DNA from: Macrocystis pyrifera
Taxonomy: Eukaryota; Sar; Phaeophyceae; Laminariales; Laminariaceae
Assembly (NCBI GenBank): GCA_031763025.1
Contig: JASSKH010000015.1
Coordinates: forward strand, 186,001 to 250,000
Direction: 5' to 3'
DNA: 64,000 nt
Below the pieces are notes generated by a model, which had not been told where the DNA came from, made no database searches, and saw only the letters and a program-made list of their open reading frames with translations. This document shows, piece by piece, positions 15,916-50,089 of the stretch (position 1 is the stretch's first letter; each line of letters begins with the position of its first letter). The translations under genes were made by a program, and so were the position numbers.

Positions 15916-16103
15916 AGCAGTAGTAGTGTTTAGTAGTAGCAGTAGTAGTAGGTAGTAGTAGTAGTATTGGTAGTAGCAGTAGTCGTAGTAGTCGTCGTGG
16001 TAGTTGCAGTAGTAGTAGTCGTGGTAGTAGCAGTAGCAGTGTTGAGAGTAAAAGTAGTAGTAGTAAAGTAGTAGTAGTAGTAGTAGTAGTGTGTGGTAAT
16101 AGC

Positions 16104-16179
<76 letters not shown>

Positions 16180-16183
16180 TAAA

Positions 16184-16227
<44 letters not shown>

Positions 16228-16359
16228 TTATAGTAGTAGCAGTAGTAGTAGTAGTCGTCGTGGTAGTTGCAGTAGTAGTAGTCGTGGTAGTAGCAGTAGC
16301 AGTAGTGAGAGTAAAAGTAGTAGTAGTAAAGTAGTAGTAGTGGTAGTGGTGGTAGTAGC

Positions 16360-16390
<31 letters not shown>

Positions 16391-16440
16391 GTAGTAGTAT
16401 AAATAGTAGTAGGTAGCAGTAGTAGTATAAATAGTAGTAG
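15905..16440 (+). repeat. (TAG)n microsatellite
   Basis: About 530 bp of TAG/GTA trinucleotides with interruptions (GCAG, TCG, TGG, AAATAG). The purest block is about 16103-16230. Its frames translate as poly-Ser, poly-Val or stops, so the apparent open frame is an artefact of composition. Sequence blocks inside it are themselves duplicated (GTAGTTGCAGTAGTAGTAG at about 15998 and 16263), which suggests array-level duplication. Confidence 0.95.
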
Positions 16441-17065: not shown

Positions 17066-17280
17066 GTTGTTCGGTCTGCACGCTGCTTCTACCTGGCCAA
17101 TAGCAGTAGAAGCCCTCAACCGTACATACTATGACGCCTGTGCATTCACAAAATCATCAGTAGTCGTAGGAGTATAGTATTTCGTAGCATGCATGCTGAT
17201 TCTACGTTTATTTTTCAGTACACATATTTCATTAGTATAGTTGTAGTGGTGTATATTACAAGAAACAGTACATTCATCAT
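17066..17280 (+). repeat. Repeat A, copy 2, left part
   Basis: Matches 13820-14032 almost continuously, then stops exactly at the 5' LTR of retrotransposon 1. The match resumes at 30613 immediately after the 3' LTR, so the retrotransposon inserted into this repeat. Confidence 0.8.
17277..17280 (+). repeat. Target-site duplication, left (TCAT)
   Basis: TCAT precedes the 5' LTR and is repeated at 30613-30616 after the 3' LTR. In the uninterrupted repeat-A copy the matching position (14029-14032) holds a single TCAT. Confidence 0.85.
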
Positions 17281-17562
17281 TGTTAAGATATTGTCTTGTA
17301 TGAGATTGAAAGCCCGGTAACTACCTGGGGTCAGTCACTGGGAACGTATTCGTAGTACTTAGAAGGCCTATCTTAGATGGATGGAAAACCAGGGGTTTTC
17401 CAGAGGAGCACGAGCTTGGTCTCAGTCCCCGCGTGCACGAAAGGAATAAAACTGCTCTTCTTCTGTAGCTAAGCAAACAACACATGTGAGTACAATGTTT
17501 ACCGACTTAAAAGGCAGACCTGTCCAGGGATACAAAGTGTCCCGCAACCGTTGATCTTAACA
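17281..17562 (+). repeat. 5' LTR of retrotransposon 1
   Basis: 282 bp, starting TGTTAAGAT and ending ATCTTAACA, a perfect 9-bp terminal inverted repeat with the canonical TG…CA ends. AATAAA at about 17444-17449 is a candidate polyadenylation signal. Seven substitutions separate it from the 3' LTR. Confidence 0.95.
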
Positions 17563-17564
17563 AG

Positions 17565-17582
17565 TGGCGTCTTCGGCTTAGG
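17565..17582 (+). promoter_or_regulatory. Candidate tRNA primer-binding site
   Basis: Two bases after the LTR the sequence reads TGGCGTCTTCGG…, beginning with the TGG expected opposite a tRNA CCA end. I cannot name the tRNA. Confidence 0.45.
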
Positions 17583-17675
17583 ATTTTCCGCTTTTTTGTC
17601 GGTTTGCGTTGTTTCTCACTGTTTTGTTTTTTCTTTCCTACTGTTGTTGAGCAAGTTTGTTCCGGCCACTGCACG

Positions 17676-20600
17676 ATGGAGACTCAAGAGGTGGAAGGGT
17701 CTGCTTCCCCTCACGGTGGCCGAGCCACTGAGGCCCAGGGCCCCTCAGTGCCCCACCGCCCAAGGCCCGTCGATGTGGATCGAGCGCCTTGTACAACAGA
17801 CCAACAAGTGGAGCACGAGTCTAGGAACGAGCCCCATCAGAATGACGTGGATCGAGCGCCTTGTACAACAAACCATGAGGAGAAAGAGCTTCGACCGGAG
17901 CACCCGGACGGGGCCCGAGCAGCCTCCGCCAGACGGACCTCATCCAAAACCCCTTCTGTGCCTCGCTCGGCTGAGCGAGCTCTGGCGCCCAAGACAACTG
18001 GACGCCCCGCTCCTTAGAGCCCGTGACGCGCGCCACGAGCCAGGCCTTGGGTCTTGCAGCATTGTCTCCCCACTCGTGCCCTCTGCTGTCCAAGCCACCT
18101 GGAAGCCCCCGCTCCGCTGAGCGCGTACCCAGCCAGCCCATGGAGCCAGCTGCGTCTGCTCCGGGCCGGAGCACGTCGGACAAACCTGGACGCAGCGACC
18201 TGCAGGCATCCCAGTTGCGCTCTTCGCCGCTGGATCTACCTGCTTCTGGGCCAGATGAGAGAGTATTTCAAACTGTTGTTCCGCCTCGCATTCCACTGTT
18301 GTCCGACTCTGCTGGTACTCGTAGGATGACCACGAGTGATGCTGCCACTCCTGAATTTTTTTCCCGTGCCGCGGCCACACGATGGCACACTGGATTTCGT
18401 TGTCGAGCCTGCTTCCCGCGCTGCTCTATTAGGAGCTACAAACAGAGACCCTGGAAATTACAGTGCTGGTTCGAGTTTTCATGCTGCTGATAGAGGGAGC
18501 ATCACGGCCGCTCGCGAAATTTTTCCCGCTCCTCGTCCACAAGATGGCACACTGGATTTCAGTATTGCGTCCTTTTCGCTGCTGCTGTAACCACCCACGC
18601 CGATTCCGCTGGAAATTCCACTACTAATGCGAGTTTTAATACTGCTGTTAGTGAGGACGATGCTTTTGATAGACCCCCCAGTACCGGAGTGCCCGCTACT
18701 GTGGCTACCAGCGACGTTTCTGCTGAGCATTCTCGTCCTGATGCGTGTTTTAATACTGCCGCTAGAGAGGACGATGCTTTTGATAGGCCCTCTAGTACTG
18801 ACGTGCCTACTGCTGTAGCTACCCGCGGCGATCCGGTTGAGCATTCTCGTTCCGATGCGAGTTCTAATACTGCTGCTAGAGGGGACGAGGCTTTTGATAG
18901 GCCCTCCAGTATCGGGGGCGCGCCAACACCAACTACACTTGCTGTTAGTACGCATATAAACCGCGACAGCCGCCACCCTATCACGACACCACCTAGGGTC
19001 GAGGCCCGCTCCCCAAGTGCTCGTAGCGCCCGCCGAGTGGCGCGCCAGTCCTTGATCACAGCTATACAAGTTGCTGAAGCACAAGCTGCAGCTCCTGCCG
19101 CCGCTGTTTCTACCCGCCACGACCCTGAGAACCGATATTTCTCGTCCTACCCTGCCTCGGTGCCCCCCCCCTGCCCCGGTGTCGCCCTTTGCCCCGGTGT
19201 TTTCCGCCCGCCCCCGCCTCAGCATGTCGCGGGCAACAACAGCATGGGAGGGATAACCCAGCCCAGCCAGGTCTCCCAGCGGCCTGAGGATTTACGGCTC
19301 CTCCCCCTCTTCGGGAGCGAGGACACCCGAGCCCGCGGGCCCCACGACTCTGGACGACGAGGTGGACTTCGAGCCCCCTGACTCAGAGGACGAGCGGCTG
19401 GCTACCGAAAAGGACGCAGGACCGGCGGCCGAAGACCCGGGCAGTGCCCAGGCGCCCCCCCAACTACCTGGAGCGTGGACCTCCCTCTCGCCGCAGGAGA
19501 AGGCGATCGTGATCCATCCATCCGAGCCTCGACGCGGGGACAACCGCAGAACGCCCCGCGCCCGGCCTGGCCGACACTGCCGCGGCCGCATGGGCTCCGG
19601 GTTCCGCGGGCACCCACCCCCCCGACGCCCTCGCGGCCGAGCTGGCTTTGGCCACCGCCGAGACCCTTGGGGCTGCCTCAGCGACAACGGCTAGTCGTCG
19701 AGCGCAGACGCGTATGTCGGCCGAGCTCGCGGCTGAAGCAGCCGCTCGCGCCTCCACGGCCGCCGCCGCCGTCGCCACGGCTGCCGCCACGGCTTCCGAG
19801 GAAGCCGCTCGCTCCGCCACTTGCGCGCGAGACTCCATATCTCGAGCCAGTGAAGCGCTGCGGGCTGCCCGGGCGGCTGCTCCCTCCAAGACCAGTCGGG
19901 CCGCCGAGACGAGAGCCCCAGCGGAGAACCTTCCACTCGCCTCTTCCACAACAAAGGCCGCTCCAGCTCCCGGCCTTGGCCCCACGGATCCGTGTTCATG
20001 CACTGCAGGCGGCGGTCGCGCACCGCCCTCCAGGAGCCCTCCCTCCCTTACTCGGGACCGGAGGCTGGCGACCACCCCACCTCCCTCAGCGGACACCGGG
20101 GAGCTGACGACCACCCCGCCTCCTCCAGCCGACACCGGGGAGCTGGCGACAGCTCTGTAGCCGGAGACCGCTCTCGCTGCCGCGCTGGCGACCAGGCCCG
20201 CCAGCGCCCGAGGGTTGGAAGGGATTCGACCGGTCCGGACGGCAGGTTCCGCCGGGGCTCGGGCGGGGAAACGGGTGGCAGTTCGTCACGGCGCAACGGG
20301 GCTGGACGGCGAAGAAACCGGGAGAAGGGGAAGGAGCGATCGGGTGACGGCCGGTACGGCTCACGGGGCAACTCTGGTCGAGCTACTTCCACCAGCTCTT
20401 CCTCGGACGGCGACACCAGAGCCCCCGTTCCAACGAAGCACGCAACCAGCAATAGGCAAGTGATTCCTTCGCTGACTGAGATTGCTTCTTCCGCCGCGCG
20501 TCTTGGTCGTTTGACCATGCCCGATGACCGCGCCTTACCTGTGTCATCTAACCTTACTCACGACCGAACTTTGGCGATCGACTCCGCCGCCGCCACCGCC

Positions 20601-20894
20601 GCAAAACAGCACACTGCCGACGTACAACGGGCGTACAAACGCCTGGGACTGAAGGATATTTCGCGCATTTCTGTCTTGCCTTTCCCCTCCTCGATCGACC
20701 CTTGCGAGGTCGCGCAGCAACTCATGCGTTCGGTCAAGGCCTCCGCCTCTGATATTCTCATTATGTGCAACGATGGCAGCCATGAAGGCCTTAGTTCTAC
20801 TAACTGGACCCCGGTTGGGAGTACCCTCTCAAGAAATCCTTCGCGCGCGCCATCACGCCTGACAAGCCTACGACCGTCCCTGTCACTACCTTGA
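17676..20894 (+). pseudogene. Gag N-terminal region, low-complexity, frameshifted
   Basis: The first good start in the element is the ATG at 17676. The reading then moves between all three frames, giving Ala/Pro/Arg/Ser-rich protein up to the capsid-like part. A short duplication (DVDRAPCTT…) occurs at about 17772 and 17847. A 114-bp (38-residue) tandem repeat occupies about 18600-18930, with units starting near 18627, 18741 and 18855 and a core like EDDAFDRPSS. 19640-19960 is an Ala-rich, coiled-coil-like stretch; 20160-20440 is Arg/Gly/Ser-rich. Such disordered basic N-termini are usual for RNA-binding Gag. No enzyme domain is recognised. The antisense frames over this GC-rich stretch are shadows. 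Confidence 0.6.
18600..18935 (+). repeat. 114-bp coding tandem repeat in gag
   Basis: Nearly three copies of a 38-residue unit (HSRPDA…NTAAREDDAFDRPSS). The phase is conserved in multiples of three, so the array expanded while the frame was translated. The units differ by several substitutions. Confidence 0.8.
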
Positions 20895-21655
20895 TGGATG
20901 ATTTTTTTGGACAGGTGTCCCGCGCGCTCGCAGCTGGATCATCGGGACCGGAGGCGTTCATGCTCCTCCTGAGGTTGCTGAGCAACCACTTCGACCGCAC
21001 CAACACGGGGGCCAGCTACAACAAGTTGCATAATTTTGGCGTGGCTAGCGGGACCCCTTTTTGCGATTTTGGTCGTGCACTGCGAGGGGTGGTGTCCACA
21101 GCGACGGGGACTGAGCGTGTTTTGGCACCGGGAGTGGAGGTTGTTTTGGAGGTAGTTCGGATGGCAGTGAACGAGCACTACCCCAGCTTGATTTCGACGC
21201 TGTACCCGGGAGTTTTGGTTACGGTATTGAGGCCGTTCGGCACTTTGGACGCCATGTGGTTAGCTTTCGAGACTCTAGCGAATAATAAGACACCTGCCGC
21301 GAACGGCGAAAAATATTTTTCTTTGCCTGCTTCTTCGACGGGTGCGCGGTCATCCACCCCGTCGGGGCCCCGGCCCGCCAATATTGGTCGCGGCCAGGGC
21401 CGGACGCTTCCCCAGTCGCCTTCTTGGCAGACGGGATCGCGCAATAATCCGCTTGTAATGAATGCCCACAAATCCATCCCTTCGACCCGTGGCTTGACAC
21501 CTCTTCCAACTGCTGGCCCCTTGAAGAACACCACTATGCCGAAGTTCACGCCGTTTGCATGTCCATCCAGACCGAGGCCCCTCCCCTCTGGAGCGGCCTA
21601 CTTTCATCGTCCGCTCGCGCAGCCACCCTCAGCGAAAACCGAGGACGCTGTTTAA
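20891..21655 (+). pseudogene. Gag capsid-like domain
   Basis: A 254-codon open stretch starting MMDDFFGQ. It is helical in character, with leucine-rich segments such as FMLLLRLLSNHF and VEVVLEVVRMAV, and lies directly before the zinc knuckle, where Ty3 capsid domains sit. The C-terminal third is Pro/Ser/Thr-rich. The frame ends in TAA at 21653, and translation must shift frame to enter the zinc knuckle. Capsid identity rests on position and helical content, not on a conserved motif. It overlaps the preceding frame by a few bases. Confidence 0.55.
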
Positions 21656-21873
21656 ACTGTCACGAAGACACACACTCTCTTCGACAGTGTAGACACCCCT
21701 TTTTAAACCTTAGTGGTATCTTGAACCCCGACCTCGGAACGCTCGGCGACGACGGCGAGGCGTTCCGTCGTTGGCAAGAACGCATGATCAGACACCGCCG
21801 CGAGAACAATTCACGACCGAACAAATACAACCAGAAGAAACACAGGCGTCGTCCCGGCCCCTCGCGTGGGTAA
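21559..21873 (+). pseudogene. Gag nucleocapsid with CCHC zinc knuckle
   Basis: The motif CLNCHEDTHSLRQC at 21649-21690 fits C-x2-C-x4-H-x4-C exactly, the retroviral-type nucleic-acid-binding zinc knuckle. It is followed by a conserved-looking LNPDLGTLGDDGEAFRRW block and a basic tail (KYNQKKHRRRPG) ending at a TAA at 21871. This part would package element RNA. It is in a different frame from the capsid part. Confidence 0.85.
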
Positions 21874-22134
21874 CACCACGGCCAGGGTCAGCAACACAGA
21901 CAAGGTGATGGCTACAACACACACGCGGCACGTGGACACCATCAGTCTCACTCCAGCCATCATGGTGGTTCGACCGCCCCTACCTTTTCCGCCCCGGCTC
22001 CCGTCTCGGGGGTTCGCTACGGTGCCTCGCATACCTCGGGCGGAAACCCGAATGGACGCCAGCCAGGCACCTTCCGCGCCGGTAACTAACAGGTCGACGG
22101 TGGTTCGGCTTCTCCTGGCCGCCCACCGCCAGCA

Positions 22135-23104
22135 TTGTCAGGAGACAAAACCTTGATTTCACTAGATGCTCGCGTCCCAGGCTCGCTCAGTACTCCGCTC
22201 CCGCCCCGCGCGTTACGCCGTACTTCGGACCGACGCAGCGATTCAGCTCCACTGATTTTTCCGGGGAGCCCTCGGGCGCCTTCCCCGACATCGGGAGCCC
22301 GCGCCTCAAACGCCGCTCCCCTCAACCTGGGCACGAGAGCAGGCGCGATAAACGCCTCTCTCCCAAACCATGCACCGCGCAACACGACGGGTGTCGCGCC
22401 GTCGCGTCGTTTTATTCAGCGAGGGTGTCCCCCTCCTACACCTCCCGGCCATGCGGTGGCGGTCGGTTTGAGGTGCGGGAACGCAAACACCGAGACCCCG
22501 AGATCTCGGTTGAAGCTCGACTCGGCGTTTCCTCGCAATAACGGTGGCCGCTCCACCCCTTTTCCTATTAAGGAGGAGTCGACAAGATTAGCTACCTCGT
22601 CCCCCTTCCCTACCAGGTCTACAGGACGGAAGCCCTCTCCGGTGGACCCTTTGTTGCCCTCCACCCGAGCGCCTTTCTTGAAGACGTCTACAGGGTCTTC
22701 AGGCCCTCTTTCGTCTTCGCGCACGCCACTCCACGTGCGCAGCGCTCTTTTGGCTCCAGTGGAACAGGAAAAACCTGGCACTGCCCGTCGAGCCAGTGGT
22801 GACTCCACGACCTCCGGTCAGATCAACCGGACAGCATACCCGTTAAATTCGGAAGAATCGCAGCTCTCGTCACGCAGAACGGGCTCAGAGCCCCCTGCCC
22901 CCTTTGGTCCAGGACAGAGATCATCGGGCGCAGCAAGAGAACCTTCTGGCAATTTTGGTGACACAGAGCCAGTATACGTGGAACCGGACTCGTCGCGTGC
23001 ACCAGGGGCTCAGTGTTCTCAGAGAAGCACACTCCCCCCCCCACACGCCGCAACTGCGGCCACCGACGACTCGGCACCGTCGGGTTTTGACCCTACTCTC
23101 GAGT
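22135..23104 (+). pseudogene. Pol N-terminal linker, Ser/Pro-rich
   Basis: Open but low-complexity sequence linking the Gag zinc knuckle to the NADAR domain. It is rich in Ser, Pro, Arg and Thr, with no domain that I recognise. It probably forms a flexible spacer of the polyprotein. Confidence 0.5.
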
Positions 23105-23605
23105 ATACAACGGAGTGGGTGGTCCTGTTTTGGCAGCCCCCCCCCCTCTTATTTTTCGCAGTGGTCTCCCTCGTCTTTTGTCGTCGACGATGTATCATAT
23201 TCCTGCGCGCGGAGCAGTATATGATGGCTGAAAAGGCTCGCCTTTTCCAGGAGCACGGCACAGCGGAGCGTATTATGGCCTCGCCAGACCCACGCGAGCA
23301 TAAACGCCACGGTCGAGGCGTGCATAACTTCGACTGCGCTATCTGGGACCGTGTTCGGGGAGACGCCATCCTTGCTGGTAATTTTGCCAAATTCTCGCAG
23401 ACCCCGGTCATGAAGCAGCACCTATTGAGCACTGGCACCAAACGTTTGGCTAAGCCAGCCCTTTTGATGCTGTGTGGGGCATCGGTCTGCGGGCAGACGA
23501 CCCCCAAGCTTACGACCCCTCTCGGTGGCATGGAAAAAGTTTGCTCGGTAAAGCTCTTTCCGCCGTTCGCGACACCCTCCGATCAAGTGAGGCCGGGTTG
23601 GCACA
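23105..23605 (+). pseudogene. NADAR (YbiA/RibX, DUF1768) domain captured in Pol
   Basis: The family's landmarks appear in the right order over ~165 codons. An FSQWSPSSF block (about 23155-23181) comes first, then AEQYMMAEKARLF from about 23210. PDPREHKRHGRGVHNFD (about 23287-23337), a W…R…I…NFAKFSQTP block (about 23345-23405) and a LLSTG block follow. The domain ends with DAVWGIGLRADDP…SRW (about 23468-23530) and LLGKALSAVRDTLR. Family knowledge: YbiA/RibX cleaves an N-glycosidic bond in riboflavin-pathway intermediates, and some NADAR proteins remove ADP-ribose from guanine in DNA. The domain lies between the Gag zinc knuckle and the protease. This copy is broken by a C-run frameshift near 23140, a 2-bp insertion near 23208 and a 1-bp loss near 23452, so no active enzyme is made here. 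Confidence 0.9.
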
Positions 23606-23829
23606 CCCCGCCTCCTCTCAACAATTCTGCACCCCAACCAGACCTGACAGAATTCATGAGATTACACCAGCGCCGCCCCGCCCTTTGGCCGTGGCCCGCG
23701 CTTGCCCAGGTCCTCTTTTGGAGTTTTCGACCTATTTTTCTGACGCGCCGGCTGATCACAGCCCCGAGATTTTGGCTGTCGCACCTAGTGTCGACCCCTT
23801 CCTCGCGCTGCCAGAACACGGCCCTTGCC

Positions 23830-24260
23830 TCGTCGGGGGCACCATTGCCCTCGATGACGCCTCTTTTACAACGAAAATCGCGATTCACAGCGGAGCTGGC
23901 GTTCTTGCACCTTTTGGTTGCGTGGCGCTTCTTGACACTGGCTCCCCGCAGACTTTCATCCGACGAGATGTTTTGGATCGCATGCACTCGGTTGGTGCGG
24001 CATCCCTCGCGTGCGAGCAGAAAGGCGCCCCTCGTTCTTGGGGGGGTTCGGCGAATCGGTCCCTCTGAAGACTTCGACGAGTGTGCGCCTGAGCGTCCAA
24101 TTTGTTCGAGAAAATGAGCCTACTTGCTCCCTCGCAGTTTGGGCCTGCGTGGTCCCCCCCTCGGTGATGCAGCATGCTGTACTATTGGGACGTGACAGCT
24201 GGATGCGCTTTAATAGCCGCTCCTACTGCTCTCTGCCACCTCGGCCGTCTGATCAACGCG
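23830..24260 (+). pseudogene. pol: Retropepsin-like aspartic protease
   Basis: ALLDTGSPQTFI carries the active-site Asp-Thr-Gly (codons 23934-23942) followed by the usual hydrophobic strand. The second half of the fold, with VLLGRDSWMRF near 24180, lies in another frame. The switch falls at a run of seven G at 24039-24045, a typical homopolymer indel. The enzyme would act as a dimer to cut the Gag-Pol polyprotein. The first part shares a frame with the end of the NADAR domain, so NADAR and protease belong to one polyprotein. Confidence 0.85.
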
Positions 24261-24949
24261 TTTTTGGCGAGCTGGAGTTAGTTCACCACGCCCCGACAGG
24301 CATGTCCGTGTACGCCATCGACTCCGCCGCTTCGGGTGGAGGCTTCCATCTACGCTACGAGGGCGCAGCCGGCGTCACCCTGTCAGACGATCCCCAGCTG
24401 CTTGCTGTTAATTTGGTTCGAAGCGATGGCTCCCCGGCCCTCCCTGGACACTACTTGGTCGACATGATGCCCCAGCCCGACCTACCCTCGGTTGAGGAGC
24501 ACTTCATCTCCTCCGGACGACAGGTTCTTCTCCTCGTTGGAGTGGCGGCTCTCGAGCCGGGGGATGTCCTCGGCGTCGCCCACGCCCCATTGCTGAGCGT
24601 TCCGCTGGACGTTTTGCAGCAGGACAACCGAGCCCCCACCCCCCCCTCCGGACTAGCTGAGGTGTGTCCGGTTTCAGCAGTTACTGCCCCCCCCCTCGCA
24701 GCTCCAGCCTCGCCCTCGCCTGCACTGCTTGAGTGTTTGACCTCAGAACAGCGCGCTTCGTTCCTGCGCGTCTGGGCACGCTTGCCAACACATCTGAGGG
24801 ATGTGGCTTTTGATCTCCACGGCGCAGGCTGGACCCCTGCGGTCATTGAACAGCTGGGGGACGTTCTCTGCGAATTTCCTGACGTTTTCTCGAAATCCAA
24901 GTCGGATTTTGGTTCCTGCTCGTTGATGCCTTTCGTGATCTCGGTCTCG

Positions 24950-25816
24950 GAAGGAAGTGCTCCTGTCACGTCCAGGTCGCACCGCATCAACCCCATCCTG
25001 GCCAAGGAAGTGGAGGCCACCTTGCATCAGTACCTAGCGGCAGGTCTGATCCAGCACTCGACTTCCCCGTACTCGAGCCCGCTGGTGGTCATCCCGAAGA
25101 AGTCTGGAGGCGTTTGGATCACCGTGAACTACAAAAACCTCCACCAGATCAGCAAACTCAGCCAGCTGCTTATCCCTCGCGTGGACCAAGTCCTCGACTC
25201 CCTGGGGAAGGGACGGGTGTTTTCCCTCTTCGACTTGGTCTCCTCGTTCCACCAGATTACCGCGCACAAGGACACCGTCCCTCTTACGGCGTTCTGCACC
25301 CCCACGGGCCTTTACGAGTGGCTCGTCATGCCCCAAGGTAGCACTGCTTCGCCCGGCTGGTTCGTCAAAGTGATTAACGAAGGCATTAAAGACCTGACAC
25401 AAGTGGCGGCCTACCTTGATGTGATCGTTTTCGACTCTGACCCGACGGCCCACGTCAAGACGATACGAGCCCTCTTCGAACGCCTGCGCAAACCCAACCT
25501 CAAGCTCTCCCCCTCAAAGGCTCGCCTCGGCGCCACGGACGCCAATTTTCTGGGCCACTCTATTTCGCCCGCGGGTGTAAGCCCTAATGGGGAAAACGTT
25601 TCGGCCTTGCCGAAAATGCCCATGCCCAAGAACCTCAAGCAGGTCCGCGCCCTGATGGGCGGCGTAGGATATTATCGCAAATTCCTGCCCGACCTGTCTA
25701 AACGGATGCGTCCTCTTACCGCCCTTCTCCGGAAGGGGGTCAAGTACGTCTTCACGCCGGCTCTGGAAGTTATCGTCCGCCAGATCCTCGCCCCCACCGA
25801 TTTTGGACTTCCCTGA
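24950..25816 (+). pseudogene. pol: Reverse transcriptase, Ty3/gypsy type, YxDD damaged
   Basis: Fingers/palm motifs run in order: INPILAKEVEATLHQYLAAG, SPYSSPLVVIPKKSGG, the VNYKNLHQI block (normally V-D-Y-R), FSLFDLVSSFHQI with the motif A Asp at 25232, and LYEWLVMPQG. The catalytic YxDD box (25412-25423) reads YLDV followed by IVF, where Y-x-D-D-hydrophobic is expected. One Asp is missing, most simply through loss of a GAT triplet. The thumb contains LMGGVGYYRKFLPDLSK. The frame ends in TGA at 25814 just as RNase H begins; a frameshift near 25785 separates them. Confidence 0.9.
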
Positions 25817-26200
25817 CTGGGATGCCGTAGCCAACGGCTCCTGCCCCTTCCACATCGACGGTTTCGGTGCCGCGCTCGGGCAAGAACAACCGGACGGCTC
25901 GGTACGGCCCATTGCTTATATCAGCCGCGCTACCCTCGATTCTGAAAGGCACTGGACACCGTTGGACCTGGAAGCTGGCAGCATTGTCTGGGCTATCAAA
26001 CGACTCCGAGGTTACCTGTGGGGCACGAAGTTTCGAATATTTTTCGGATCACAAAGCACTTGAGAGTATCGCCAAAGTAGGGGACCACAACGCGCGAGTC
26101 CAGCGGTGGCTCGAGTTCCTCACCGCGTTCGACTACACCCTCGAGTACCGCAAGGGCAGCGCCAACGGAAATGCTGACTTTCTCTCCCGCTTGCCAGAGC
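25785..26200 (+). pseudogene. pol: RNase H domain, first catalytic Asp missing
   Basis: FPDWDAV is followed by PFHIDGFGAALGQEQPDGS, then AYISRATLDSERHWTPLDLE with the second acidic site, SDHKALESI with the third, and ANGNADFLSRL. Ty3/gypsy RNase H normally has a C/T-D-A-S stretch right before the D-G-x-G-A segment. Here those residues are absent, which looks like a short in-frame deletion near 25853. A further +1 frameshift sits in a T-run at about 26038-26044. RNA-strand degradation after reverse transcription is thus probably lost. Confidence 0.85.
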
Positions 26201-26568
26201 CCGCCACAGAACACGACCGCAGTGGGTCTAGCTGCCTCAACCCCGTCGAGGACGGTGGTATCTTCCTCATCCGAGCCTGCGGGCTTCGCACTCGCTCTTC
26301 GCCGACCCCTGGTGTCGGTTTGGGTGGGCTGGTGTCCCGCCGTGAAAGTGCCGTCTTGGGTGGGCTACCTCTCGCCTCTTCGGATGTTCGCGATTTTCGC
26401 ACACACGGGCCACGTATGAGGATTGACGACCTCTCTGCTCTTTCGGGGAGATTCGTCGCTCGTGTATCTGCCTCCGTCGCCACCGTCGACCGCCGTCCTG
26501 ACTTGGGGGATTTCTCACCCCCCGCCAACGCCGCTTTCGCTTCGGTTTTTGTCGTACATTCCGGGGGC

Positions 26569-27198
26569 GACCAGGGCTCTGCAGACGCCCCTGCTGCAGC
26601 GACGATTGTCGCCCAGCGTGCTCCTCTCCCGACGAGCACTTTACAGGTCGAATATTCCGTCGTGAGCACTGCTCCGGCCGCGTCTTCCCTCTCAGGCCAG
26701 GGCTCTGCAAAAGCCCCCGCTGCAGCGATGATTGCCGCCCAGCGCGCTCCTCCCCCGACGAGCACTTTACAGGTCGACGATTCCGTCATGAGCACTGCTC
26801 CGGCCGCGTCTTCCCTCTTAGGCCAAGGCTCTGCAACAGCCCCCGCTGCAGCGATGATTGTCGCCCAGCCCGCTCCTCTCCCGACGAGCACTTTACAGGT
26901 CGACGATTCCGTCGTGAGCACTGCTCCGGCCGCGTCTTCCCTCTTAGGCCAAGGCTCTGCAACAGCCCCCGCTGCAGCGATGATTGTCGCCCAGCGCGCT
27001 CCGCCCCCGACGAGCATTTTACAGGTCGAAGATTCCGTCGTGAGCACTGCTCCGGCCACGTCTTCCCTTTCATGCCAGGGTTCTGCGGAAGCCCCCGCTG
27101 CAGCGACGATTGTCGCCCAGCATGCTCCTCCCCCGACGAGCACTTTACAGGTCGAAGATTCCGCCGTGATCACTGATCCGGCCGCGTCTACCCCATCG
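26569..27198 (+). repeat. 126-bp coding tandem repeat (42 residues x5) in Pol linker
   Basis: Five units start near 26569, 26695, 26821, 26947 and 27073. The core is STAPAASSLLGQGSA…APAAAMIVAQ…PTSTLQV. The period is 126 bp, exactly 42 codons, and units differ by a few percent. The array lies between RNase H and the integrase zinc finger, where these elements usually have a short tether. It would make a long Ala/Pro/Ser-rich flexible spacer. Confidence 0.9.
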
Positions 27199-28465
27199 CC
27201 GCCTGGCAACCCGGCGCCTCCGAACGTTTTGCCGTCTTTAGGCCACATCTCATCGCGGACGCGCCGACGAACAGCCGCCGCCGCTGGCGCCGTGCCGCCT
27301 GCTGTTGATTACGGCTTCGGGCCCGGCGGGACCCCTAGACCATCAGCCCGGCGTGATACCACCCCGCTGCGAGCCCCACGGCCACGACCGCCCGCACCCG
27401 TCTTTTTGGCCCCGACTCCTACCGCCTCGTCCGTCCCGACGGTACCCATCCCGTCCGGCCGCGACCGCACCGAGCCCGTGGGAACTCCTCTTTTACGACT
27501 TCCGCCGCCAACTGACGCACCTCCCGTCACCTCGACCGACGTGGACGCCCTGGGCGCAGCTGCCGAGTTTCAGTTCGGTGATTCCGCAGCGCGCTATTCG
27601 CACGCCGACTGGGCTCGGGAACAACAGGCTGAGCCCGCGTTCAATGCCGCCATGCGCTACATAGCCCTTGGCCGACCGGAAGTTTTGCCAGACGACTTTT
27701 TATCAGGTTTCCCTTCCCACCAGCGCCCTCCCTTTTCGGAAGTTCAAGAGCTGGCCACCAAAGGCCGCTTGCACACCACTGACGCGGGCATCGTTCTACT
27801 TGTCCGACAGCCGTCTCCCCCCCCCCGCGTTGGATACGCCACGCCCGGTGGGTCGTACGGCCTGCTTATTGAACGACGAGCCTATTCGCATTTATGTTCC
27901 GCTGCTCATGCGCCCCTGGGTCATGCAGTCTTGCCATTCTACGGCTTCCTTCCACCTAGGAACCGCGCGCACCCTACGTATGCTCGAACGTTTGTATTGG
28001 TGGATTAGCATGAGTATCTGCACCCGGTGGTGGCTACGCAACTGCTTAAAGTGCCAGGCACGGAAAACGTCGCGGCAGACAGTCCGGTGGCCCTCCATCA
28101 CGTTGCCCTTGCCAGATAGCCCCGGCATCGCCGTCAGCATCGACTATTTCGGCCCCCTCCCGATGACGCCTCGAGGTAATACCTACATCTTGCTTTTCAC
28201 TGATCGTTTCAGCCGCCGAGCTGACATGTACGCCGTCCCAGCGGCCAAGTTCACCGCTGACGGCACGGCTAACATTCTCATCAACCGGTATATCCCTCTT
28301 TGGGGGTGCCCGCGCAGCATCCTCTCAGACAACGGCCTCCAGTTCTGCTCCAAGCTTTCGCACGCCGTTTATCAGCCTCTCGGGGTTCGAACAATTGCCA
28401 CCACCTCCTACCACCCAAACGGCCACGGTGGGGCGGAACGTGTAAACCACACGATGGCCCAGATG
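27199..28465 (+). pseudogene. pol: Integrase: HHCC zinc finger and DD35E core
   Basis: The N-terminal zinc finger is intact as H-x5-H-x29-C-x2-C (His codons 27935 and 27953, Cys codons 28043 and 28052). The catalytic core has Asp in SIDYFGPLP (28142), Asp in LSDNGLQF (28328) and Glu in GGAERVNHT (28436), with exactly 35 residues between the last two. A C-run near 27818-27830 shifts frame just before the zinc finger, and another indel near 28470 follows the core. All catalytic residues are present, in contrast to RT and RNase H of the same element. The role is strand transfer of the cDNA into host chromatin. Confidence 0.92.
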
Positions 28466-29799
28466 TTGGCAATATGGTCGTCAACGAGCTCCAAAACAAC
28501 TGGGATGAACAGCTCCCTCACGTCGAATTTGCGTACAACAATTCCGTCAGTGCCGCCACGGGTCTGGCTCCCAACGAGGTACATATGGGTTGGCTCCCAC
28601 GCCTCCCACTCACGATTTTCGAACGTGCTGGAGTCGCCGGCCACCAGAGCTTGGCGCGCGACCACCTCGCCTACTGCGACTTGGCGACGGACCGCCAGCA
28701 GCGCGCGTACGAAATCGTTCGAGAACACCACGCCCTCACTGTCGCTCGCGTGAACCGCCGCAACTCCGCCCTGTCCGACGCTCTGCGTCCGGTCCCCAAA
28801 TTTGACGTTGGTGGTTGGGTGTGGGTGTACAATACGGCGGCCACCATCCGTCAGGGCGCGAAACCAGACACGGACGCCAAGGTCCTCAAGGCCAAACTCT
28901 CACTCAACTGGACGGGCCCCTACAAAGTTCTCGCAGTTGGCCCCTGCTCCTCAGCGGACACCCCGGATGGATCTCCTCTCGGATCAAAGCTCCTGTATTT
29001 GGATCTTCTTTCCGATATACCCGGCGCCGAGGCTCGCCGGCGCGTATCTGTTCAACGCTGCAAGCCCTGTGCCAACCCCTACGACCGTGGCGACATGTCG
29101 AAGTATTTGCCGGCGGGGTTGACGCAATACGTGCTCAACAATTTCTCCAAGAAATCCCCTCCGTACCACGTCACCGAGGACGACGTTTCGACCGCTCTTG
29201 AACGACTCAAAGTGGAAAAGATTGCTGGACATCAATCGGTTAGAGGTCGAGGTGGCGTCATCGCGGTGATGTACGAGACGCACTGGAAGGGACTTTCCCG
29301 GCCATCCTGGGAACGGGAAATGGACCTTCAGCTTTGTCGCCACGCAATTTTGCGCTACTGGGCCGGCACCCCGAACCAACACCGCCAAACCAACCGCCTG
29401 TACCGCCGAATGAGAATTGGCGCGGCACAACGGGAGCTTTCTCGGATTAACGGCGAGCGGTTTCTTGCACCCGGCTATGGTTGCGTATCGCACGCCGATT
29501 GGCTCCGCCGCTACAGCAACACTGTACTTCCCAACGGGGCCCACTTTTGGTACAAGGGCGACGACGGTCTTTGGTGGCTCGGGAAAACCAGCGAAACTAC
29601 ACCGACGGATGGAGTATATTTGGTTCGATTTTTGGACGACCGAGGACCAATCAAGCTTCCTCTTTCTCCGGCGCGCTACACGACTTCGACGAGAGCTGTA
29701 CGAGGTTCTTGGTGTCTGCAAATTCACTTGGCTAGCGTTTTTACACGGGGGGTCCAGCGTAACGTAGATGAATCTCGAGGTGCCGCCGTGGATAGCTGA
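28466..29799 (+). pseudogene. pol: Integrase C-terminus: GPY/F, chromodomain-like and Tudor-like modules
   Basis: After the core the frame is open to the TGA at 29797. It contains NNWDEQLPHVEFAYNNS (end of the core), then LNWTGPYKVLAVG near 28907, the GPY/F module typical of Ty3/gypsy integrases. Around 29240-29330 a chromodomain-like stretch reads YETHWKGLSRPSWEREMDLQ, which in chromoviruses targets modified histones. Near 29545-29700 a second module, FWYKGDDGLWWLGKTSE…YLVRFLDDRG, has the Trp/Tyr-rich beta pattern of Tudor/Agenet-type readers. The Tudor-like call is inferred from pattern only. This is the longest undamaged part of Pol (about 445 codons). Confidence 0.8.
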
Positions 29800-30330
29800 A
29801 TTTCGCTTCTTGACCGCACTCGTTATTTAGTTATTTTTTGTCGTCTTCCTGGGCCTTGGGGGATGAATTTTTGTCTGTCCGATATGTTTCTGGTGTGTTT
29901 TCTTTCTTTTTTTGGACTGGTTTGAGGATGTTTTTTGGCGTATTCTGTCCTGTCTACCCCCCCCGCTCAATTACGGCCCAGGACGCGCTTTCAGAGTCGT
30001 GGACTGGGTTCAGGTGGTTCTTGCCGTCTTCCGTGATATTGCTTCTTTTCGTTCCCGTACTCACTTTTCGCTTTTCCGTGCATCTTCCTCGCCCCCCCCC
30101 CCCGTGCGGGCGGCATGGCGATGGCGTTCATCGACGATTTCTTCCTGACCCTTAAGGCTAGGTCTTCCCTTTATTTTTTAAGTAATTTGCCGGCTTCGTT
30201 GCCTCGCCGTTCAGAGGTGTGGGAGTGGGTTTTGAGGAGCCGCATCTTCGACTCATGTTCTAGTTCGTGGAATCGGGGTCTCCACGAATTTCCCATATTT
30301 CTGCGTATACGGCTCATCAGAGTGGGTTAG
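29800..30330 (+). other. 3' untranslated region of retrotransposon 1
   Basis: No coding domain. T-rich with a 12-C run near 30093. The bases just before the 3' LTR (CAGAGTGGGTTAG) are purine-rich and are the only candidate polypurine tract; it is weak. Confidence 0.6.
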
Positions 30331-30612
30331 TGTTAAGATATTGTCTTGTATGAGTTTGAAAGCCCGGTAACTACCTGGGTTCAGTCACTGGGAACGTATT
30401 TGTAGTACTTGGAAGGCGTATCTTAGATGGATGGAAAACCAGGGGTTTTCCAGAGGAGCACGAGCTTGGTCTCAGTCTCCGCGTGCACGAAAGGAATAAA
30501 ACTGCTCTTCTTCTGTAGCTAAGCAAACAACACATGTGAGCACAATGTTTACCGACTTAAAAGGCAGACCTGTCCAGGGATACAAAGTGTCCCGCAACCG
30601 TTGATCTTAACA
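30331..30612 (+). repeat. 3' LTR of retrotransposon 1
   Basis: 282 bp with the same TGTTAAGAT…ATCTTAACA ends as the 5' LTR. It differs from that copy by seven substitutions and no indel. Confidence 0.95.
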
Positions 30613-30681
30613 TCATGCCCCCAACTCATGTTACCGATTGCATGCTACGTTGCCGTTGTATATAGCAGTTATTAATATGTA
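30613..30681 (+). repeat. Repeat A, copy 2, middle part
   Basis: Begins with TCATGCCCCCAACTCATG, matching 14029-14075. It carries on the repeat-A copy interrupted by retrotransposon 1 and is itself interrupted at about 30680 by the MITE. Confidence 0.75.
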
Positions 30682-42642: not shown

Positions 42643-42833
42643 ACGTTACGGTGGTAATCCAAGGATCCGAGGGGTTTTCCGGAGTGGACACGGCATGTAG
42701 GCAAAAGGGGAAAATGCGAATTGAACCCGGAGACTGGGGGGATGTGAGCAGACGGTCACAACCCTTTTCCACCCCTTCAGCTTCTTATATAGCTCATCCT
42801 GATGCCGGCAGTGCCCCCCTATACCAGAGGAGT
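42643..42833 (+). repeat. Repeat D, interrupted copy, left part
   Basis: Matches 35048-35231 closely (for example GTTACGGTGGTAATCCAAGG, GAATTGAACCCGGAGACTGG). It ends at GAGT, the left target-site duplication of retrotransposon 2. Confidence 0.85.
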
Positions 42834-43352
42834 TGTTGCAGCGCCGACAGTGCTTCGAAGAGGATAATACGGCGTGAGACAGCTGTTCTGATCAGTGTCA
42901 CGCGTCGGGTCTATTCGATAGGCAGAGCGCAAGCTTTGATTAGCATCCTCTGGGCGGATCTTATAGGGGCAGGGAGGATCCCCGGTGTGGGAACGCCTTC
43001 GGTCTCGGGTACAGAGCCAGTAATGAGGTTCCGGGACCACCCGGTGTTTACTCGACACCACAAGTGAAGAAAGAAAGTCAAAGCCAAGTGATCTGTGATA
43101 CCTGTCCTATCGACCCCCAGCCCCTTGGGCCCTGCCGTGCCCGTCGTGCCCGTCATCGTGTCTGTGGTGCTTCGTTGCTGTTCACGCTGACTGCTTGCAT
43201 CTACCGCATTGCATCGATCCACGTTTTGCGTGACCCGATCATTACTGCTTGAAGGCACTTCCTCGAACTCCCAAACAACAGGTGAGCCGGCCTCAGAGAT
43301 CTAACGAGCGCAGGTCCTTCTTAGGGTCTGAGAGCTGTACCCTGCTGTAACA
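42834..43352 (+). repeat. 5' LTR of retrotransposon 2
   Basis: 519 bp, TGTTGCAGC…GCTGTAACA, an imperfect terminal inverted repeat. It differs from the 3' LTR by about nine substitutions, a ~9-bp indel in a GTGCCCGTC repeat near 43135, and a 1-bp indel near 43050. The next bases (TGATGAACCC) are not a standard primer-binding site. Confidence 0.95.
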
Positions 43353-44291
43353 TGATGAACCCAGGCTGATCGAAGTGCATTGCAGGAGATCGGAGTGTCT
43401 GCAAAACAGTGATCGGAGTGGCTGCAAAACAGTTGCAGGGGATCCGAAGAGTTTGAAAAATCGGGGGAATGATGCTATCATGTATGCTCAGGCGTCACCT
43501 CACATTGATCTCGTATATTAGTCACACACACTCTTGGACACCCACATTCGTATGCATTTGAAAACCCGCATGTTTTTGTTTTGCCCGCCTGGCATTATGG
43601 CCATACGTGCAATGCTGTTATGTGTGCACGCTGCCAATGGCGCTTCGCCTGTTCGTTCTGTATTGCTTTGAAGATATGTGCTCGGTCAATGCATGCAGGC
43701 ATACTCGTTGCTCGTGCTCTGTCTGCCTGTTGCCCGTGCTCGTTTGCCTGCTCATTGTACATGTTCACACACATGCACGTTCGTTAATAAATGACTGCAT
43801 GCTATTTACCACATATCATCTTCAAAAACAAATGCACACGACAGGTGTCGACAGATCAAAGGCGCCGTACGTACTGATACACGCATAGTCTCGTATGCCG
43901 TTCGCCCGGGTTAGGTGACACCGGTAACTAATCATGTAGAACCTATTGCTGTACTGATGCCGTCCAAGAGCGAGGTCATTTATAACACATTTGTTTTTTG
44001 ACGAACACGTAACTCGCTTTCAGGCCAAGCATGGACCAAGAATTTTAAAACACTATCACTATTGTTATTTTTCAGGACAAGTCTGTCCACCTGACACGCA
44101 GACAATCTCAAACAACACAAGGGCTGTGAACGATGCTGACCGCATGTGAATATATGTTCAAAACACAACCAGATACATGTGTCCTCTCCTTTTCTTTTTT
44201 TTTCTGTGCTGTCATACAATGCCCCGAGCGTACACGCAGGGTACACCGTACAGCAGACCGCAGAAAGGAAAGGGAAGGAAATTGGAGAAAC
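43353..44291 (+). other. 5' leader of retrotransposon 2, including repeat E
   Basis: No coding domain. The segment 43849-43960 (AAAGGCGCCGTACGTACTG…, TTAGGTGACACCGGTAACTAA) closely matches 54243-54350 outside the element, so part of the leader also exists as separate sequence. Confidence 0.6.
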
Positions 44292-45091
44292 ATGGACGAC
44301 CGCCACGCCACCAACGAGGACGACCGTTCCGGCGAAGGAGGCAGCACGCGGGGCGACGAACCATTTCGTAGCAGCAGCGACCGGGGGAGCGACAACGACC
44401 AGGACCGCGGTGGTAACCGCAGCAACAGCGGTCATCCTCTCGAACGCGTCCACAGCGTAGGAGGGGGGGGCATGGGCGAACCCTGCCCATCTAGCAACTA
44501 CGGCCGTGGTCGCGACCAGGAGCGGGAGGATAGCGGTCCTCGTAGCCGTGGCCGCCGCTCTAGCAGCGGGCATGAGCGGCGCGACAGCAGCGAGCGCCGC
44601 AGCCGCCGAGGCCGGGGCAGCGACGGCAAAACACGCAGCGGCCGCCGTGGCCACAGCCGCGATAGCCAAGAACGCCGCCGTCGTCACCACAGTCGCCGCC
44701 GCGACCACAAGGAACGCCGACGCAGCCGTAGCCGCGACAGCAGCGAGCGCCGCAGCCGCCGAGGCCGGGGCAGCGACGGAAACAAACGCAGCGGCCGCCG
44801 TGGTCACAGCCGCGATAGCCAAGAACGCCGCCGACTTCACCACGGCCGCAACCGCGAAAGCAAGGAACGAAGCCGCCACCGCAGTCGCGGCCGCGACCAC
44901 GAGGCACGCCGTCGCTGCCAAAGCCAGGACAGCAGCCACGGCAGTGCACCCCGGGAGAGCCGCCGCCCCAGCAAGAAGGGGAGGTCGGTACGGAGCCCGC
45001 AACAGTCCCCGTCGCTAGAACATCAAAGGGAACGGCCGTCGTCGCTCTCACAACAGAGGCAACAGCTGCCACAGCAGCAGCAGCAGCTGCC

Positions 45092-45124
<33 letters not shown>

Positions 45125-45184
45125 CCAACACAGCACCAGCACCAGCAGCAGGAGCAGGAGCAGCAGCAGCAGCAGCACCAGCAG

Positions 45185-45225
<41 letters not shown>

Positions 45226-45560
45226 CCAGCAGCACCAGTAACAACGGGTGTCGGCGCAACCCCTACGCCCGGTACCGGCAACAAGCCTGGCACCACACCC
45301 GATTGGCTACGCAGCGTATCCATGGAGTCTGGGTAACATGGGGGGGGGTATTCTCGCGCACACTACTCGCCCGCGCAGGTGCCCCAGGCGCAAACGTTCC
45401 GCCAGCCTCAGCCCGCACCATCAGCATACGTCGGGCAGCATGGAGCACGATACCAGCACTACCCCCGTCCTACCCCCTGGATCTGGTAGTCGAGCCAAAA
45501 CGCACAGACGCCCCAACCGACGGGGGTAGCACCACCACAGACCGCAACCCACCAGGGGGC
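44292..45560 (+). pseudogene. gag: Gag N-terminal RS-domain and poly-Gln/Ser region
   Basis: The ATG at 44292 opens MDDRHATNEDD…. From about 44560 to 44940 the protein is built of Arg-Ser, Arg-Asp and Ser-Arg dipeptides, such as RDSSERRSRRGRGSDG, resembling RS domains of splicing factors. A 153-bp (51-residue) duplication has starts at 44581 and 44734. A CAG-rich tract at about 45060-45240 gives poly-Gln then poly-Ser/Thr. The frame then shifts into the capsid part. RS domains in host proteins are phosphorylated and bind RNA or splicing partners; here a role in RNA binding or nuclear localisation is inference. The antisense frames over this low-complexity DNA are shadows. Confidence 0.7.
45060..45240 (+). 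repeat. (CAG)n-rich tract inside gag
   Basis: About 180 bp of CAG with ACA and CAC interruptions. It is translated as Gln then Ser/Thr runs. Confidence 0.9.
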
Positions 45561-46663
45561 ATTGGAACCCAGCGGTTCGAAAGAGGCCCAAAGGGTCGTG
45601 AGCAAGATCGTAGGCGACATGGGACTGATAAAAGGCCAATATGGTTTCGTGGGACTGGTTGTGGCACCGCAGGGCGAGCTCTCATGGAGGAACGATCCAG
45701 TGCTGTTTGCCGACAAGCTTACTAAGATCATGTCACAGGTCGAGGGGGCGGCGTGGGCCATGCCCCAAGACCAGTTCTCCACCGATGGGATCAATCCTGC
45801 CCGGCCCCGAGCAGATAGGCTGACGCCGTGGAGAGTCGAGTGCTTTGGAAAGCTCATCGCGGACACCCTGGCGACACGCGATCTGATGCGCCCGCACTCT
45901 ACGGTGGAGGTACCTCTCGTACAAGGGGGGTTTTGCCACATTCCCTTCGAGGAAGTCACGACAAAGGAGTGGTGCCGGATCCTGGTAGCCGAGGTAGCCC
46001 ATTCAGGGCAGGCGCAGAAGAGGGCTGAGGCGGCACTCACGGAGATAAAGCTCATCCAAGGGGAGTCGTGGATGGCCGCAGCCCGCCGGCTGGTGCTGCA
46101 TGTTCGCGCGGCAACAGCAGATGAGGCGAGGCCGCACACGTCGGAAGAAGGTCCACTTTTGGAGGTACGTGTCGGGGAGGAAGGTGGCAGAGCTCTGTGA
46201 ACGAGCGGCAAATCTATTCTTTACCAGCGCCTCCGATCGCAATGGGATGGAATCCCTCCTTATCCAGGTGGGAACTGAGGTTAAGCAATATCTTACTCCA
46301 GTACACGTGGACGCTGGTAAACCTCTGAATCCGTACATGGTACACCGCGGAGAAGTCTCTCACGGCATATTCTACGGCTTGATCAATGCACTGCTCACCC
46401 GGTGCAGTCGTTACCCCCTAGCCGTGGCACGCCTGACGGGACGGAGCCGAGGCAGCGTAACGGGGCTAACACAGAGTCAGCGGCTGCCCCTGGGGCAGAA
46501 CGAGACGAGGGGGTTTCCGTCGAGGGAGGAATGGGAGGAAAGAGGTAAACAGCGCACCAGGGAACTACCCAAGGCGTGGAGGAAGAAGGTAGAGGCGCTC
46601 CGGGACAGCGCGTGCGCGGCGCTGGCTGCGGTAGACGGGGAATTATCCTCTGAAGGCGAGTAG
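45561..46663 (+). pseudogene. gag: Gag capsid-like region
   Basis: Two overlapping open stretches, 45562-46200 and about 46160-46663, joined by a frameshift near 46160. The first contains GDMGLIKGQYGFVGLVV and ALTEIKLIQGESWMAAARRL; the second contains VAELCERAANLFFTSASDR and LINALLTRCSRYPLAVARL. Helix-rich content and position between a basic N-terminus and a zinc finger fit capsid. I recognise no catalytic motif. The second stretch ends at an in-frame TAG (46661), after which the same frame continues. Confidence 0.6.
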
Positions 46664-47147
46664 GAAGAGGGGAAGGACGTGGAGGAGGAAGCTGTCGACG
46701 ATCGCTCAAACGTCGCGCCCTTTTCCAACGTCCGCGCTTCCACCCCGGGTGCACATGGAACCCCGTTTGTAAGCCGCAAAGGTGACAGAAACGACCGCCC
46801 GGGCAGTAGGAACCGAGAAACAACGGACCGCAGGGAGGAATGGGACGAGCTACCGAGCCCGGATGCCGAAGTCAAGGTGATTGTCGACGCTTTGCGCCAG
46901 CGAAGAGTCTGAGTTTTTCATGCGAGGGGTTCCGACTGCCCCCACAAGAGCGCTGCCGGTGGAGGAAGGTGCCGCTTCTCGCACGAGGACGTCGTGCCGT
47001 ACGGATTGTACCCCCGCAAGACCACCCCGACGCAAGCCCTGCAGCTAGAGCCTGGTATGCTTACGGCACTCGAAATGCTGAGCGCGTACACGGCCGAGGA
47101 AGGCGGGGCCGCCGCAGGCGCCTCGCGTGTCTTGCGGGCTTGAAGAC
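46664..47147 (+). pseudogene. gag: Gag C-terminal region with CCCH-like finger broken by a stop
   Basis: In the same frame as the capsid end, the protein continues acidic and basic by turns to an in-frame TGA at 46910. Directly after come Cys (46937), Cys (46970) and His (46982): C-x10-C-R-F-S-H, with CRFSH typical of CCCH zinc fingers. The TGA lies exactly where a first Cys eight residues upstream would sit, and TGC to TGA is a single change. No CCHC knuckle is found in this element. The CCCH reading is an inference from spacing; the x10 interval is longer than usual. Confidence 0.5.
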
Positions 47148-47317
47148 GCGCCCCAGGAGGTTCTCTCCTGGGGAACAGCAGCCAAAGTGAGCAACAAACG
47201 CGGGGTCGGCAGGAAGAGGAGGCGAGACGCAGTACCTACGACGTCGCTTCGACAAACAGCGGGGGGGGCGCTAACAACGACGAGGTCGTCCCGGCGCAGC
47301 AGTACAGCAACTTCGCG

Positions 47318-47924
47318 TTGAGCGCCCTAGATGTGGACACCCCAAGCAGCGTGGCAGCCGTGGGAGCTGGGGCTAAGCAGGTGTGGGTGCGCGCATTCGT
47401 GTGGCACCACACCAGAACCAGTTGCCGCATTCCAGTGGAGGTGCTGGTCGACACGGGGGCAGGGGGTGGAAATTACTCTTCCGCGGCATCCGTACGCTCC
47501 GTCGAACGCAGTGATAGGGGGGGCAATCGATGGTGAGCCCGAGGGGACAGGGGTGGTTGAGGGCAGCCAACCTCACGGGCAGCGCAGTCCCGCCAATGAA
47601 ATTGTCCGGGTGTGCGAGCTCCAGCTGGTGTTCAGCCCGGAGGACAGGGTGCGCAAGGTATTAGCGCGGGTGGTGGAGGATCTCCCGTACGGCCTTATCA
47701 TAGGAGCGGCGTTCCTGAGAAAAAATGGCAGCACTATCAGCTTCGCGGCCGGGAGAGGTTTCAAACCGGCACCAGAGTCACCTTCAGTGCCCTTCATCTC
47801 GTCAACAGGAGCCTCCTCGTCAAAGGTGGCGGAGCTGAAGGCGGTGAGCTGGCATGCGTCTGTCCAACCGAGCAGAGCAGAAGTGGAGCCAGTGGCGACC
47901 GGGAACACGGCAACGTGGGAGTAA
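47318..47924 (+). pseudogene. pol: Retropepsin-like aspartic protease
   Basis: RIPVEVLVDTGAGG carries the active-site DTG (Asp codon 47450). Just after it the frame changes near 47475, and the second half (ELQLVFSPEDRVRK…LPYGLIIGAAFLRKNGSTI) shows the hydrophobic LIIG block before the helix of retropepsins. The frame ends at TAA (47922), but the RT region continues in the same frame from 47925, so protease and RT were once continuous. Confidence 0.85.
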
Positions 47925-47969
47925 TTTTGCGCCGTCAAGCCACCCTGTGGAGAGGGAGAGCCGGCGGAA

Positions 47970-49900: not shown

Positions 49901-50089
49901 CTTCCCAGACGATCCCTCCACGAGGACCACGTACCGGGGCCCCAAGGGACCGGTGCTCGACGGCGTACTGCTCAGCGAACTTGGGGCAGACGAGGTGAAC
50001 AAGCCAACGGGAAAAAAAAAACGCGGCGGTTGCGGCAAGCGTAATTTTTACCCCAGGCGGAGCCGTCGACGCAGACACTGAGAGAGCCG

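Follow-up and report, generated by a model that had tools for sequence, protein, structure and literature searches.

The window analysed here, 64,000 nucleotides of the kelp Macrocystis pyrifera (contig JASSKH010000015.1, positions 186,001 to 250,000 of the forward strand; coordinates below are those of the window), contains at 17281-30612 a 13.3-kb Ty3/Gypsy retrotransposon that carries a NADAR domain between Gag and the protease. The domain is the N-terminal module of Pol, in one reading frame with the reverse transcriptase (RT) and the integrase, the element is amplified in the genome, and comparison of the copies shows at the sequence level that the predicted active site has been kept across lineages. 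The kelp element is a new, amplified case of an already reported architecture: in 2025 the available text of PMC12477816 described, in Ectocarpus sp. 7, one Gypsy lineage (Gypsy-12_Ec32 among its members) with a NADAR domain at the N-terminus of Pol, so that an earlier note on the present stretch, whose author knew of no such retrotransposon, was mistaken on this point. Among the literature matches listed there was no further report of NADAR retrotransposons, and none from kelp. It is proposed here, tentatively and at somewhat less than an even chance, that this brown-algal element acquired a NADAR domain of the YbiA subfamily once, and that the domain would be packed in the particle and remove ADP-ribose from the RNA or cDNA of the element.

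The NADAR Domain in Pol

In the window copy the domain spans 23147-23582 of the forward strand, between a Gag zinc knuckle (CLNCHEDTHSLRQC, 21649..21690, also seen in other copies) and the DTG motif of the protease, as the earlier note had proposed, and all NADAR motifs quoted there are found in the sequence. It is split over three frames. The first part (23147..23206) lies in the frame of an open reading frame (ORF) at 22847-23224, which gave no match on its own in the Pfam scan and whose translation, read by eye, resembles other copies; the first catalytic Glu and Lys belong to the middle part (23191..23451, PF08719 6.3e-22 over profile positions 34-120), which shares its frame with the ORF at 22090-24117; the last part (23454..23582, PF08719 3.3e-10, profile positions 122-163) is in the frame of the ORF at 23454-24068. 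The two profile matches bear out the family assignment, and the claim that NADAR and protease share a frame holds for the last part, which runs in the frame of the DTG motif; it fails for the middle part, in the frame of the zinc knuckle, and for the first part, in the third frame. The window copy could be broken, or small assembly errors could lie behind the frameshifts; according to the accessible part of PMC10498591, the assembly was built from PacBio reads with Canu and Racon, so that some of the frameshifts could be sequencing errors.

A PF08719 profile search of the genome (537,376,219 bases in 223 contigs) returned 1264 candidates, 150 of which were scored. All 150 exceed the Pfam cut-off and 126 are without internal stop by our own count; the window copy belongs to the family in two pieces, and lineage C (see below) is represented in it by locus L049. 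The surroundings were sampled at one match in four among the first 77, with 10 kb taken around each; in all 20 stretches thus obtained the NADAR domain precedes the protease on the same strand. RT was present in 14, integrase in 19, the chromodomain region in 18 and Gag in 13 of these stretches, the last with the first 200 residues of the window Gag piece as tblastn query (11/11 in lineage A, 2/9 in lineage B, see below); at one locus, L029, the element extends past the end of the fetched stretch. Because all scored candidates of the same genome surpass the cut-off, the NADAR domain inside the Ty3/Gypsy element is confirmed as real and not due to chance. Chance similarity, contamination or insertion into a single copy, for which the frameshifted window copy by itself might speak, is already refuted by the uniform scores and by the recurrence of the same element context in 20 of 20 stretches, and may be dismissed as next to impossible.

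Relatives with the order Gag-NADAR-protease, such as the earlier note had suggested looking for, exist in many copies in the same genome. In L049 (lineage C) a natural open frame of 2326 residues has NADAR (7e-44), RVT_1 (1.7e-25), H2C2 (1.1e-11) and rve (1.9e-6) in this order. As to distribution, a contig of 22.0 Mb (C200) holds 26 of the 150 scored matches against 6.1 expected by length (p 5e-10), and 19 of these 26 lie beyond 11 Mb. At a guess from its size, this contig may be scaffold 2 of the assembly, whose second half is described in the accessible part of PMC10498591 as carrying female sex-region markers.

At the gag/pol border, the five copies read (three of lineage A, two of B) all have the same Gag-end motif, followed by a TGA that is in frame with the NADAR domain and by CA(A/G); in one of them (L038) NADAR and the DTG motif both lie in the frame that follows this stop. 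The window copy has TAA at this position (22087..22089), which separates the zinc-knuckle frame from the NADAR-bearing ORF; that ORF extends into the middle part of the domain, and a second stop is found in the zinc-knuckle frame at 21871. The arrangement suggests that Pol would be made by readthrough of an in-frame stop after Gag.

Lineages and Derivatives

Four diverged NADAR lineages were found, A (that of the window copy), B, C and D, with mutual identities of 49-59%. Lineage C came from a search with a Scytosiphon protein, whereas D, identified as NADAR from alignment and tree alone, was met via RT matches without a listed NADAR. Such matches numbered 84 of 150 against a hand-made list of 242 NADAR places taken from the scored matches. 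A NADAR-less sister lineage, suggested by 20 RT matches of 79-84% identity, none with a listed NADAR, was rejected on the upstream DNA of five of these loci, chosen by hand: all five carry the domain, in one frame in two (L158, L161) and in broken frames in three. The apparent gap arose because the NADAR list covered only the 150 scored matches, and relatives without the domain, which the earlier note had named as evidence against its own view, were not encountered among the five loci sampled.

Six of the nine lineage-B stretches (L025, L028, L030, L035, L036, L040) share a common deletion of nearly all of the RT and part of RNase H. These copies are 94-98% identical to one another, keep NADAR, protease and integrase, and would have to borrow an RT.

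Active Site and Selection

Among solved structures, PDB 8bau is closest in sequence (5e-17), followed by E. coli YbiA (2b3w). We take 8bau to be the NADAR protein of the oomycete Phytophthora nicotianae, reported as a guanine-ADP-ribose hydrolase in the available text of PMC11543638, because all thirteen contact residues given in that source fit its sequence with an offset of two; its residues were identified by visual inspection of the printed alignment. Active-site counts refer to 43 copies of lineages A-C taken from the best-scoring matches, which overstates the conservation. All 43 copies keep E43, K75, G78, R79, W89, R93, E125, D130 and W133; K50 is kept in 42 and V81 in 41, so that these eleven residues are held in the majority of each of A-C. 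The position of Y84 is Phe in all 43 copies, and D86 is replaced by C, Y, R, E or L; 8bau differs further in being a separate protein outside any Pol. Identity among A, B and C is found at 12 of the 13 ADP-ribose-contact positions vs 51 of the 137 others (Fisher p 1.3e-4), and 11 of the 12 contact positions common to A-C also equal 8bau.

According to the accessible parts of PMC11125620 and PMC11543638, the YbiA subfamily has Glu at the E125 position, the DarT1-linked subfamily Asp, and phage proteins His. Since Glu occupies this position in 43 of 43 copies, the kelp domain is, as judged by sequence, a member of the YbiA subfamily. The marks of a DarT1-NADAR toxin-antitoxin pair were lacking, with Glu rather than Asp in all 43 copies and no DarT match in the genome search.

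Between lineages, one copy of each being compared, dN (replacement divergence) is 0.34-0.47 with dS (silent divergence) at 2.3-2.8 or saturated, and dN/dS is thus at most ~0.2. It might be argued that NADAR persists for a structural or binding role within Gag-Pol, with affinity for nucleic acid or nucleotides and without catalysis, and its retention with protease and integrase in the RT-less derivative would suit this; the catalytic Glu and Lys, however, persist in 42-43 of 43 copies across lineages only 49-59% identical, which renders a purely structural role improbable.

Known Elements and Origin of the Domain

In the available text of PMC12477816, all families of the Ectocarpus Gypsy-12_Ec32 lineage carry NADAR, a chromodomain lies C-terminal of the integrase in Gypsy-12_Ec32, and blastp matches of the element NADAR are almost all bacterial. 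The kelp domain likewise sits at the N-terminus of Pol (L049, L038). As regards a chromodomain, the window copy has a chromodomain-like C-terminal region at 29158..29394 (PF00385 7.3e-4) and L049 a match of 0.031, both below the cut-off. So far as the two can be compared by description, the kelp element is set apart by its four sub-lineages, the 1264 candidates, the RT-deleted derivative with NADAR and the gag/pol stop. The same source reports a divergent NADAR domain in ORF1 of Tx1 LINEs (long interspersed nuclear elements) of Crassostrea gigas; this is a retrotransposon with NADAR as in kelp, but a non-LTR (long terminal repeat) element, and probably a separate capture.

Three groups of sequences come close to the kelp domain. 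A Nannocystis NADAR shows 61-62% identity to lineage A and shares with it the FWQPP start, and in the genome scan (best 80 of 566 rows) the top four matches all come from Myxococcota (56-61%); these YbiA-type NADARs are separate bacterial genes. Of the stand-alone brown-algal proteins from Ectocarpus, Pylaiella and Scytosiphon, P0011, P0040 and P0069 reach 57-62% identity to lineage A, and P0034 60%. Several metagenome proteins with element-like flanks are 63-79% identical. The comparison does not favour a viral donor, the 27 viral loci showing 42-56% identity vs 61% for Nannocystis; of the earlier suggestion that a cellular or viral gene had been captured, the cellular half is thus supported by bacterial-type kinship and the viral half is not. 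Around two Nannocystis NADAR loci, Pfam found no ADP-ribosyltransferase among ten neighbouring ORFs (five each, some overlapping), and a toxin-antitoxin setting of that gene was rejected because no transferase is recognised by Pfam nearby. A search for long-protein homologues with a lineage-B ORF gave 414 candidates, none significant.

The algal stand-alone proteins are 227-252 residues long and, unlike the Pol fusion, comprise little beyond NADAR and a Cys-rich, zinc-finger-like N-terminal part, for which the Pfam scan of P0011 and P0069 found no family. No kelp match to this N-terminal part was seen among 150 scored of 1351 candidates; a kelp orthologue of the stand-alone gene was likewise not met among the 150 scored matches, which an intron-split or unscored gene could escape.

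For the trees, 142 proteins and 11 kelp domains were assembled, 130 of which passed a crude motif filter. The first tree had 87 rows (including 51 of 94 'other' proteins), the second 82 after five long rows were dropped, and the third 56 after removal of two more long rows, thinning of the rest and addition of two D rows. In the trees A and C are joined, with the algal stand-alone proteins close by (among the element NADARs in the 56-row tree, 86/83), while B and D are poorly placed. Neither a single clade of element domains (p 0.128 in the 82-row, 0.174 in the 56-row tree) nor one that also takes in the algal stand-alone domains (p 0.183 and 0.0997) was rejected. The identities of NADAR, integrase, chromodomain region and C-terminal region all rank A-C > A-B > B-C, and this concordance favours one capture.

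Further Features of the Element and Its Surroundings

The element, all parts of which lie on the + strand, is bounded by a pair of LTRs of 282 bp with TG...CA ends (17281..17562 and 30331..30612; 97.5% identity, seven mismatches, no gaps), flanked by the target-site duplication TCAT (17277..17280 and 30613..30616, read by eye). A Gag piece at 20804..21655 has no Pfam match and recurs 5' of NADAR in other copies. The aspartic protease region (23808..24436, LLDTGS near 23930) was delimited with the L049 protease region as tblastn query; no Pfam protease family matched it in the window copy or in L049, and the assignment, by motif only, rests on DTG and on recurrence in other copies. It is followed by the RT (24974..25684, RVT_1 1.3e-19, 72% to L049 by tblastn), RNase H in two frames (25694..26043, PF17917 7e-4, below its cut-off, and tblastn with L049) and the integrase (27872..28474), with an H2C2 zinc finger (3.7e-13) and an rve core (2.6e-07, just below cut-off). 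TG...CA LTRs, target duplication and the order protease (by motif)-RT-RNase H-integrase are those of Ty3/Gypsy elements (Metaviridae).

About seven tandem units of 126 bp occupy 26445-27326, between RNase H and integrase, and a long GTA-type trinucleotide repeat tract lies 5' of the element at 15934-16400. A second, unrelated Gypsy element with RT, RNase H and rve is found on the + strand at 42825-53811; its terminal direct repeats, in two pieces, are 95% and 99% identical, and with a weak C-terminal Tudor match (PF21743 6.5e-4, below cut-off) it resembles the Tudor-bearing Gypsy-10 lineage reported from Ectocarpus in the available text of PMC12477816. No NADAR match was obtained in it by tblastn comparison, so that NADAR is not a general trait of Gypsy elements here.

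Possible Function

The proposed course of events is as follows. Readthrough of the in-frame stop after Gag would yield a Pol with NADAR at its N-terminus, and the domain would be packed into the particle beside the RT. There it may strip ADP-ribose, most likely guanine-linked, from the RNA or cDNA of the element, or clear related ADP-ribose adducts, such that reverse transcription and integration would remain unblocked. The domain would have been taken up once, before the lineages split, its source being a stand-alone gene either of algae or of bacterial type (myxobacterium-like). The idea of the earlier note that NADAR may guard the cDNA against ADP-ribosylation is plausible as a hypothesis. 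A more specific version, in which a packaged, active hydrolase of bacterial antitoxin-type origin would keep cDNA and RNA free of guanine ADP-ribose and would later have passed to an Ectocarpales host as a stand-alone gene, appears doubtful.

Several observations weigh against the proposal. Activity, expression and packaging of the element NADAR are predictions from sequence; the position of D86 is not kept; and besides lacking a DarT match the genome search gave one PARP exon match, with no host guanine ADP-ribosylating enzyme identified. The frame is unbroken from TGA to NADAR in one of the five copies read (L038) and interrupted by additional stops in the other four; in L049 the post-Gag frame ends before NADAR. 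No single element clade was recovered in the trees: B groups with the metagenome protein P0124 (99/93, 82-row tree), and P0124 and five stand-alone rows stand among the element domains in the 56-row tree, on a weak branch. The RT identities (75.6, 74.0 and 76.4) depart from the NADAR ranking. By RT, C is closer to D (79-81%) than to A, whereas by NADAR it is closer to A (59% vs 51%), a discordance that points to swapping or uneven rates. Within lineages the signal of selection is weak and mixed, and comes from a sample biased towards high-scoring copies. Replacement/silent ratios per site, all from small counts, are 0.51 for singletons (plus three stops) and 0.34 for shared variants in lineage A (20 of 25 rows, full length), and 0.39 (plus one stop) and 0.86 in lineage B; L045 and L047 were excluded.

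Such ratios, not very low and with the shared variants of B as the extreme, would agree with a neutral passenger, or a metabolic enzyme useless to the element, and retention of NADAR in the RT-less derivative would suit a passenger also. On the other hand, four lineages hold full-length domains at near-saturated silent divergence, and none of the five checked RT loci is without NADAR, so that a passenger seems very improbable.

Two further roles may be considered. NADAR might process the RNA intermediate, acting on ADP-ribose-bearing or NAD-capped RNA ends or on RNA-repair products, and have no part in DNA damage or defence. According to the accessible part of PMC9503650, NADAR and the polymerase share a polyprotein in RNA viruses, and the domain has been tied to RNA repair; a role on the RNA intermediate has been proposed for the Ectocarpus elements (available text of PMC12477816), the RNA-end examples being those of the present analysis. 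The activity reported in the accessible parts of PMC11125620 and PMC11543638, however, concerns guanine-ADP-ribose in DNA and riboflavin intermediates, and RNA processing is regarded as unlikely, if worth keeping in mind. Alternatively, NADAR might counter a host immune signal by destroying soluble ADP-ribose derivatives or a host ADP-ribosylation that silences or blocks the element. The available text of PMC9503650 suggests as much for viral NADAR domains, and the amplification of the element in the genome would agree with it; the single PARP exon match and the missing DarT speak against it. We know of no ADP-ribose-based defence of this kind in brown algae, though no search was aimed at one, and this counts against it as well, and such a role is considered rather unlikely.

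Returning to the proposed removal of ADP-ribose from RNA or cDNA of the element, one should recall that nucleic-acid ADP-ribosylation is known as a bacterial weapon and antidote system, whereas its role in eukaryotes is an open question. The domain is small and directly assayable, so that the question can be put to the test. If the Ectocarpus and kelp lineages are the same, the significance extends to two brown algae. An active site kept through near-saturated silent divergence suggests that such a modification, or a related ADP-ribose adduct, may matter to reverse transcription in the cells concerned.
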